DNA of 5,233 bases from Thermoproteota archaeon. Lineage in GTDB: Archaea > Korarchaeota > Korarchaeia > B14-G2. Numbering within the stretch: position 1 is the first letter of the stretch; every line of letters starts with the position of its first letter. The notes below the pieces were generated by a model, which searched no databases, was not told where the DNA came from, and saw only the letters and a list, made by a program, of their open reading frames with translations. Shown here piece by piece: positions 1 through 4,904 of the stretch. A program made the position numbers and the translations under genes. The stretch lies in contig QMWA01000129.1 of NCBI GenBank assembly GCA_003661385.1, positions 1 through 5,233 on the forward strand, written 5' to 3'.

Positions 1-553
1 AGCCTGGAGGGCAGCACCAGTAGTAGCAGTAATAGTAGCACTCTGGGTATGGGTAGTAGGGTGGGTAGCAAGGCGGGTAGCAGGAGGGATAGCAGCATGG
101 TGGGCAGCAGGGTGGGTAGCATGATGTGCAGGGTGGGTAGCATGGGCAGCAGCCTCCTACAACTTCTAGGGTTGTTGAGTTTAGGAGAGTGCTCTTATAG
201 TAGACTGAGACTGTGAGGTTGTTTGGGCCTATCGCGAGGTAGGGTACTGTCAAGGTTATTGACCTTGTTGAGAGAGCAGGTATGTAGACGTAGCATGAGG
301 TGCACCAGTATGGGCCCAGGTAAGCTGATAGCTGTAGGACTATGAGCACTGTGACTGACGTGGAGTTGTTGTTCTTTAGCCTTATGTACACTGGGAAGGG
401 CTGGTTGTAGGGGAAGACTGAGGGGGCTTTCACACTGAGTATGCTAATGCTTGGCTGAGCACTAAGCTCTGATACTGGTGATGCTAAGGTGAGCGTGAGC
501 AGGGTGAGAATGATGTATGGTAGGGGGTTTACTCGCGTGCTCAAGTCTAGCAC
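1..553 (-). CDS. Secreted Ig-like protein with Cys/Pro/Tyr-rich tail (partial, C-terminus outside window)
   Basis: An open frame of 184 codons runs off the left edge without a stop. The chosen start is GTG at 553, about 26 bases downstream of the TATA box centre, which fits a leaderless transcript; TTG at 544 is the alternative. Residues 1-32 look like a signal peptide: Arg7, a hydrophobic core at about 11-24, and likely cleavage after Ala32 (ELSA/QPS). Residues 34-132 alternate hydrophobic and polar residues like a CARDB/Ig-type beta-sandwich. They contain sequons at N62, N63, N112 and N125 and a WCTSC pair (C84, C87). From residue 135 to the edge (50 residues) I count 15 Cys, 16 Pro and 13 Tyr, in units such as CYPPC and CCPPCC. 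The protein is probably extracellular or cell-surface. Its function is unknown; disulfide cross-linking, metal binding or a structural filament are possible. The frame and composition are seen directly; the fold is inferred. Confidence 0.8.
   Translation of the reverse strand, partial: MLDLSTRVNPLPYIILTLLTLTLASPVSELSAQPSISILSVKAPSVFPYNQPFPVYIRLKNNNSTSVTVLIVLQLSAYLGPYWCTSCYVYIPALSTRSITLTVPYLAIGPNNLTVSVYYKSTLLNSTTLEVVGGCCPCYPPCTSCYPPCCPPCCYPSCYPPCYPPYYPYPECYYYCYYWCCPPG
2..151 (-). repeat. Degenerate Cys-Tyr-Pro-Pro coding repeat
   Basis: This stretch encodes the Cys/Pro/Tyr tail. On the plus strand the 12-mer GGGTGGGTAGCA occurs at 59-70, 110-121 and 131-142; read on the minus strand it encodes Cys-Tyr-Pro-Pro. 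Variants with CCN and TGC/TAC/TAT codons fill the gaps, so the repeat is irregular and better kept in the protein than in the DNA. The plus strand is rich in GGG runs as a result. Confidence 0.8.
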
Positions 554-573: not shown

Positions 574-590
574 ATCTTTAAAACTTTTGG
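574..590 (-). promoter_or_regulatory. TATA/BRE promoter of the secreted-protein gene
   Basis: The minus strand reads CCAAAAGTTTTAAAG here, with a TATA-like TTTTAAAG core at 583-576. The core centre lies about 26 bases from GTG 553, the usual archaeal TATA-to-transcription-start distance, so the mRNA probably begins at or next to the start codon. The box lies just past the MoaD-like stop, showing that the secreted gene can be transcribed independently of the AOR genes. Confidence 0.65.
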
Positions 591-3308: not shown

Positions 3309-4850
3309 GTGGCCGGGATGGAAGCGTTCCCGTGGTGGTCTAGCAGGCACATCGAGCTAGCTAAGGAGATCGAGGAGTTTGCTGATGAGCACGCCCACGA
3401 GGCTGTCAAGGCTCTCTGGAAGAGGAAGTACCCTCTTGAGCTCCTCGATGAAGTGCGTAGACGAGGGTGGTTTGGAGCTCTGATACCAGAGGAGTATGGT
3501 GGCTTGGGGCTTGGCGCCACTGGCTCCTGTATAGCAGCCGAGGGGCTTGGCAGGCTCGGCACAATAGCCCACGTGTACACGACGACCATGTTCGGTGGGA
3601 CAGAGCAGATAATGCTCTTCGGGACAGAAGAGCAGAAGGAGAGGTGGCTCCCTAGGATAGCTAAGGGAGAGCTCAAGGGGGCTATAGTGATAACAGAGCC
3701 CTACTTCGGGTCTGATGCAGCTGGGATAGAGACTGTAGCCGTTAGGGAGGGAGACGAGTACGTTATAACCGGGAAGAAGAGGTTCATCACGAACGCTGGG
3801 CTAGCAGACCTCTACATGCTCTACGCCAGGACAAGCGACAGCCCAGAGGACAGAGCTAGATACAGGCACCTGACAGCCTTCATAGTGGAGAAGGGGATGG
3901 AGGGGTTCAGCATCGAGAGGGTGAATGAGCTCTGCGGATGGGATGGGCTGCAGAACGGCTACCTCAACCTAGACGAGGTGAGAGTTCCAGTGGACAACAG
4001 GCTGGGAGAGGAAGGTGATGGCTGGAGGATAATGGTCTCAGGGCTGAACTACGAGAGGACTCTGGTTGCAGCCAGCGCCCTGGGGCCTATAAGAGACGCC
4101 TTGAGGTACGCTGTGTACCACGCTCAGAGGAGAGTGCAGTTCAACCAGCCTACAATAAGCTTCCAAGTCAACCAGTTCAGGATAGCTGACATGATAGCTA
4201 AGCTGAAGACAGCTAGGCTCCTCACCTACTACGCAGCTTACCTCCTAGACAGGGGGGAGGAGGCTGTCCTTGAGGCTACAGCAGCCAAGCTCTATGCTAC
4301 TGAGGTCATGGAGGAGGTCACGAAGACAGCAGTACAGGTGATGGGTGGAGACGGCTGGATGAAGTTCTATCCAGTAGAGCAGCTCTACCGTGACGCCAAG
4401 ATATTCCCGATCATAGGTGGGACAAATGAGGTCATGAAGATCATACTCTTCAGGCAGGGGCTCAGAGCGCTGAGGGAGGAGCTCAAGCCTCCAGTGATGC
4501 TGATAGACCCAGAACTCAACGCTCCACTGCCGCACTTCAAGGTGAAACCAGCTGAGCCAGCTGAGCTCACAGAGGACAAGCTACTTGAGACGCTAGCAGA
4601 GTACTACAAGGCGAACCCAGGGCTATACGCTACGCTAGAGGAGCTGGCGCTCAGGCTTGGAGCTAAGCCAGAGGAAATAGCTAAGCTCGCCCTAGAGCTC
4701 GAGAAGAAGGGGCTAGCAAAGACCTACATAGACCCCAGGAGGAAAGCTGTCAAGATGGTCAGGCCAACATACAAGGGGCTCAAGAAGGCTAAGCCACTCG
4801 AGTACTACAAGTACATGCCAAGCTGGGTAGACCAGAGACTCATCTTCTAG
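3309..4850 (+). CDS. Acyl-CoA dehydrogenase with C-terminal winged-helix-like extension
   Basis: Residues 1-390 are a full acyl-CoA dehydrogenase, an FAD enzyme that makes the alpha-beta double bond of acyl-CoA thioesters. Visible landmarks are the N-terminal helical domain with PEEYGGLGLGATG (60-72), the first signature ITEPYFGSDAAG (128-139), KKRFITNAG (156-164), RRVQFNQPTISFQ (274-286), and the second signature QVMGGDGW (343-350) leading to DAKIFPIIGGTNEV (362-375). The usual catalytic Glu of that last motif is Gly370. E249 in NYERTL takes the position of the base in isovaleryl- and long-chain enzymes. Residues about 420-490 are extra: a helix, TLEELALRLG, KPEEIAKLALELEKKGL, then a basic beta wing, a winged-helix pattern. 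The family is normally about 380 residues. GTG 3309 fits the TATA spacing; ATG 3318 is the alternative. The acyl substrate is unknown, with branched- or medium/long-chain acyl-CoA most likely. Confidence 0.93.
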   Translation: MAGMEAFPWWSSRHIELAKEIEEFADEHAHEAVKALWKRKYPLELLDEVRRRGWFGALIPEEYGGLGLGATGSCIAAEGLGRLGTIAHVYTTTMFGGTEQIMLFGTEEQKERWLPRIAKGELKGAIVITEPYFGSDAAGIETVAVREGDEYVITGKKRFITNAGLADLYMLYARTSDSPEDRARYRHLTAFIVEKGMEGFSIERVNELCGWDGLQNGYLNLDEVRVPVDNRLGEEGDGWRIMVSGLNYERTLVAASALGPIRDALRYAVYHAQRRVQFNQPTISFQVNQFRIADMIAKLKTARLLTYYAAYLLDRGEEAVLEATAAKLYATEVMEEVTKTAVQVMGGDGWMKFYPVEQLYRDAKIFPIIGGTNEVMKIILFRQGLRALREELKPPVMLIDPELNAPLPHFKVKPAEPAELTEDKLLETLAEYYKANPGLYATLEELALRLGAKPEEIAKLALELEKKGLAKTYIDPRRKAVKMVRPTYKGLKKAKPLEYYKYMPSWVDQRLIF

Positions 4851-4865
4851 CCCCCAATTTCTTAG

Positions 4866-4904
4866 ATCAGCATGCTGCAGGCTCTATGCCTGCAGCATGC
4901 TGGT
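4866..4904. terminator. Long perfect hairpin between convergent genes (possible terminator)
   Basis: A 15-base arm CAGCATGCTGCAGGC (4868-4882) is perfectly complementary to 4888-4902 across the five-base loop TCTAT. A U-G and an A-U pair extend the stem by two. It starts 16-18 bases after the acyl-CoA dehydrogenase stop. There is no U-run after it on either strand, so it is not a classic intrinsic terminator. It may block or protect convergent transcript ends, or be a protein site, since the arms contain the palindrome CAGCATGCTG. Confidence 0.55.

Follow-up and report, generated by a model that had tools for sequence, protein, structure and literature searches.

Extracellular proteins of hyperthermophiles must endure near-boiling heat, and the means by which they do so in little-sampled archaea are barely known. 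Thermophilic archaea are known to use disulfides together with a protein disulfide oxidoreductase, in work on cytosolic proteins (PMC3177088). Three described systems come closest to the locus considered here. The CARDB/Transglut_C-type domains, such as that of PF1109 (PDB 3idu), are seven-stranded beta-sandwiches of archaeal extracellular proteins, as the domain described below is predicted to be, although no Cys/Pro/Tyr-rich segment belongs to their definition. The Cys-rich domains of cnidarian minicollagens are secreted, cross-linked by disulfides, and combine a four-residue cysteine spacing with nearby prolines; their full pattern is CX3CX3CX3CX3CC (PMC4863159). However, minicollagens are animal proteins that carry a collagen repeat as well as this full pattern, and the likeness is in possible working only. 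Keratin-associated proteins of the high-cysteine and glycine-tyrosine types are likewise low-complexity, Cys- or Tyr-rich and cross-linked by disulfides, but they are intracellular, have neither an Ig-like domain nor a signal peptide, and are unique to mammals (PMC2528016).

How does the present locus compare with these systems? The window, 5,233 nt in length, spans the whole of contig C129, one of 206 in an archaeal assembly that totals 1.74 Mb and is 91% complete. At its left end lies a truncated gene (Table 1) whose product would run from a signal peptide through one Ig-like domain directly into a segment made almost entirely of Cys, Pro and Tyr. Our preferred reading, to which we assign a probability of about 0.52, is that this is an exported surface protein of a hyperthermophile in which the segment serves as a disulfide-knit, proline-stiffened stalk or cross-linking segment. 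The source organism is very probably a hyperthermophile, as originally suggested for a thermophile, because its genome encodes reverse gyrase (1305 bits against a cut-off of 471.7) and protein disulfide oxidoreductase (229.5 bits against 185). The contig has a composition typical of the genome (tetranucleotide correlation with the rest, 0.970), which does not support the idea that it is a foreign contig in the bin. The ORF is single-copy, with nothing similar found elsewhere in its own genome; reading covered all contigs but the 66 smallest, and the 13 largest outside their inner parts. The original prediction spoke of a tail, which describes the segment only as far as the contig runs: the frame continues off the contig end, so that the segment may equally connect one domain to another.

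Table 1. Features of the truncated gene at the left end of the window
Feature	Position	Strand	Details
ORF	2..553	−	GTG start; 184 aa visible; no stop ahead of contig end
TATA-like box	576..588	−	AAAAGTTTTAAAG; TTTTAAA at −30 to −24 from GTG start
Signal-peptide-like N-terminus	458..553	−	Residues 1-32; hydrophobic core YIILTLLTLTLA; from sequence and hydropathy
Ig-like beta-sandwich domain	155..457	−	Residues 33-133; from AlphaFold2 models and PDB matches
CTSC motif	293..304	−	Cys84, Cys87; inside Ig-like domain
Cys/Pro/Tyr segment	2..154	−	Residues 134-184; 15 C, 16 P and 13 Y among 51; period of four residues; CX3C spacing

The folded part of the protein conforms to expectation. A signal peptide followed by a glycosylatable Ig-like domain had been proposed, and a signal-like start, a fold model and four N-X-S/T sequons within the domain (at residues 62, 63, 112 and 125, two of them overlapping) all agree with this. 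Cleavage is possible near LSA/Q, and codon 4 is TTG, an alternative start. Structure prediction of the body, suggested earlier as a check, gave an Ig-like beta-sandwich: the single-sequence AlphaFold2 models (pTM 0.60-0.65, with a wide spread across the five) place seven strands at residues 36-135. Foldseek searches of the PDB with the model matched the Pyrococcus CARDB domain 3idu (E 1.8e-4), which shares only 16% identity with this domain, and the Ig-like domain of Staphylothermus amylopullulanase 7e1y (E 7.8e-6), to which VIA-align superposed 96 aligned residues (Z 11.6, rmsd 2.4). Pfam membership in either family was not found; the Transglut_C match (E 0.0027, 18.2 bits) falls below the cut-off of 26.6 bits, and CARDB has no listed match. 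The body is predicted to adopt an Ig-like fold, a common one that is uninformative on function. Elsewhere in the same genome, a large protein (L128) that is truncated where its contig stops, with 1,313 residues or more, shows CARDB-like domains by eye, and has a Pro/Thr-rich linker followed by a large second part.

The segment is a real and very unusual coding stretch in a truncated orphan gene. A recount reproduced the predicted counts and units exactly, with 16 Pro, 15 Cys and 13 Tyr in the final 50 visible residues (151..2, minus strand; 44/50) and the units CYPPC (three times), CCPPCC and CYYYCYYWCC. Given genome residue frequencies (C+P+Y ~10%), the binomial chance of 44/50 is ~1e-37. Among 9,513 stop-to-stop frames from 1.36 Mb, or 78% of the genome, the runner-up 50-residue window holds 27 of these residues and is simply Pro-rich, while the next-highest Cys count is 12. 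For a prokaryote, 86% of Cys, Pro and Tyr taken together is an extreme composition. The only charged residue is a single Glu. The cysteines stand in CC, CXC, CX2C and CX3C spacings, with CX3C accounting for 6 of the 14 gaps (p 0.002). AlphaFold2 leaves the segment unstructured (pLDDT 31-40), as expected without an alignment.

Are there relatives of this gene? The whole protein was compared with its own genome, the only one of its genus and order in the comparison, and with sets of 26 genomes of its class, 29 of its phylum (28 besides its own) and 394 archaea, where it found only one compositional match (G215, discussed below); searches with the segment alone found none. Viral contigs, phages, plasmids and PDB sequences gave no match to the protein. 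The segment has no match in Pfam and the whole protein none in NCBIfam or PHROGs; together with the PDB sequences, these sources hold no family covering the segment, in keeping with the earlier statement that no named family has this architecture. Separate searches of tail and body had been proposed as a way to assess conservation; those with the whole protein and with the segment alone found no homologue at any level searched, so none that keeps or loses the segment. In the DNA of the same 394 archaeal genomes, the pattern [CY][CY]PP[CY][CY]P occurs three times in this gene and five times elsewhere. The latter are at chance level, four falling in frames that are short and the fifth in a frame of 153 codons that lacks a Cys/Pro/Tyr segment, such that only this gene has the pattern in a Cys/Pro/Tyr-rich protein context. 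The segment is probably lineage-specific. Two matches in the gene's own genome were set aside as chance (L005, and L002, where ABC-transporter genes sit on the other strand), as was one genome-contig match (L003) located antisense to a gene of 740 aa. A search of open-access papers for dityrosine in archaea, or for archaeal surface proteins rich in Cys, Pro and Tyr, yielded nothing relevant.

Could the segment be something other than a functional part of the protein? An error of assembly or a shifted frame where the contig ends would mean that the segment is not translated as read; this is highly improbable. The contig does end inside the segment, no overlapping contig was found (the first 21 bases of the contig, used to look for a continuation, have no second copy elsewhere in the genome), low-complexity DNA is error-prone, and shifted minus-strand frames across the segment are also open. 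However, body and segment form one continuous frame, and codon choice is best there: the codon-fit score of the segment is 0.248; real gene windows have a median of 0.203, and the other two minus-strand frames score 0.049 and 0.089. Counting against this, one frame of the segment's DNA on the opposite strand also scores well (0.204). The predicted reading frame is supported. Translation of the product, and its predicted export, are very probable because the segment follows the codon use of the genome, the start is preceded by a TATA-like box at −30, and the body is modeled as Ig-like. The box is in line with a genome-wide rise in A+T at about −37 to −30 upstream of starts; it fits an archaeal promoter, and a leaderless transcript is likely. 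A neutral, in-frame DNA repeat expansion, which would make the segment functionless or a short-lived accident, is more probable than an artefact and yet is quite unlikely. The segment DNA is indeed a degenerate 12/21-bp tandem repeat, the protein has 22 lag-4 identities where shuffles give 11.2 (p 0.0002), TGC is the codon for every one of the 15 Cys, and the segment is missing from every relative searched. On the other hand, the repeat copies are just 67-74% alike, Pro codons vary roughly according to genome usage (CCA 9, CCC 4, CCT 2, CCG 1), and the final CYYYCYYWCC keeps the composition while being no plain repeat of the unit. A preference for C-ending Cys and Tyr codons runs through the whole gene (37/40) rather than the segment alone. 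Since the four-residue protein period matches the degenerate 12-bp repeat, the segment probably expanded from a CYPP-like unit whose copies diverged later; the repeat origin is likely to be old, with recent expansion not visible. The original prediction had argued from varied codons that the pattern was selected rather than a DNA repeat. Codons do vary for Pro, and slightly for Tyr, but not for Cys; codon choice fits translation, but a degenerate repeat nevertheless underlies the segment.

If the segment is functional, what might it do other than form a stalk? It could be a terminal polymerization segment that joins many copies of the protein into a sheath, filament or adhesive through cross-links between cysteines, and possibly between tyrosines. 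The visible protein ends in the segment, and its Pro-separated cysteines at CX3C spacing include two CX3CX3CC-type stretches, part of the minicollagen pattern. Nevertheless, this alternative is unlikely: the full minicollagen pattern has no match in the segment, there is no Gly-X-Y collagen repeat in the 184 visible residues, the gene is single-copy, and no filament partner is seen. It is decidedly unlikely that disulfides, and perhaps tyrosine cross-links as well, polymerize the protein into a sheath or filament stable to heat, which would be an archaeal parallel, independently arisen, to the cross-linking of minicollagens or keratin-associated proteins. A metal- or cluster-binding array, in which close-set cysteines bind soft metals outside the cell in the manner of metallothioneins, is very unlikely. 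Hot-spring archaea encounter much metal, and 15 Cys among 51 residues at such short spacings would suit metal binding. However, metallothioneins as a rule lack aromatics, and 13 Tyr and 16 Pro make the segment unlike them; in addition, the protein is likely exported to where thiols tend to oxidize, and neither Pfam nor NCBIfam gives a match. The only metal-handling gene nearby encodes an oxidoreductase of the tungsten type, and a separate promoter-like box precedes the ORF.

A disulfide-knit, extended stalk appears to be the most economical reading because exported proteins mostly carry paired cysteines and the segment sets 15 Cys among rigid Pro and bulky Tyr, with one Glu as its only charge. 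Outside the cell, most cysteines would pair as disulfides within the segment, and perhaps between molecules; Pro pairs would hold the chain extended, with Tyr packing around it. The outcome would be a stiff stalk or cross-linking segment resisting heat and protease, which might join the Ig-like domain to further domains past the contig end or might end the protein. Its origin would lie in a lineage-specific expansion of a 12-bp, four-residue unit. In kind, a structural, extracellular function exerted through cysteine cross-links is probable. Against the stalk reading, the visible gene lacks its 3' end, and hot, sulfidic, anoxic surroundings can be reducing, which may bear on the oxidation state of the cysteines. 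Provided that it is disulfide-knit, the segment would show how nature can build a heat-proof stalk or cross-link compactly.

A parallel case is found in a genome of a different archaeal phylum (G215; L007/L157), which encodes a 750-aa protein that begins like a signal peptide, has several Ig-like domains and carries a membrane segment at its C-terminus. Here too, an apparently exported protein has an Ig-like domain followed directly by a Cys/Pro/Tyr-rich segment, QPPQCCPYPPCYTPTPTPSCGSYYYPCYTPTPSCQPYCG (24/35), which sits exactly at an Ig-Ig boundary. Unlike the segment described above, the insert is shorter, contains Thr/Ser and lies between Ig-like domains. The match is composition-driven and is not significant after composition adjustment; the two cases would be independent parallels rather than demonstrated homologues. 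Three congeners lack the insert while keeping the flanking domains at 36-53% identity, and a different genus of the family (G283; L161) carries at that boundary a Cys-rich insert of another, unrelated make-up, a comparison that shows Cys-rich segments coming and going at Ig-domain boundaries and offers a precedent for quick origin. For this reason, a linker role in our protein is as likely as a tail. The parallel across archaeal phyla suggests repeated origin of such segments beside Ig-like domains.

The rest of the window and of the genome offers further observations. Several contigs of the assembly, among them L018, L019, L020 and L030, have ~47% G+C (median 54%) and low tetranucleotide correlation, and are perhaps islands or foreign contigs in the bin. 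In the window, the stretch 599-2735 on the minus strand encodes an aldehyde ferredoxin oxidoreductase of the tungsten type and, directly after it and one base apart, a MoaD/ThiS-like small protein ending in GG. An acyl-CoA dehydrogenase at 3309-4850 on the plus strand carries a C-terminal extension of ~90 residues past its catalytic domains that weakly matches winged-helix/HTH domains (E 0.048-0.059); fusion of an enzyme with a DNA-binding-like domain would be unusual. Right behind its stop codon, at 4868-4902, lies a perfect 15-bp inverted repeat, CAGCATGCTGCAGGC / GCCTGCAGCATGCTG, possibly a terminator or a binding site.
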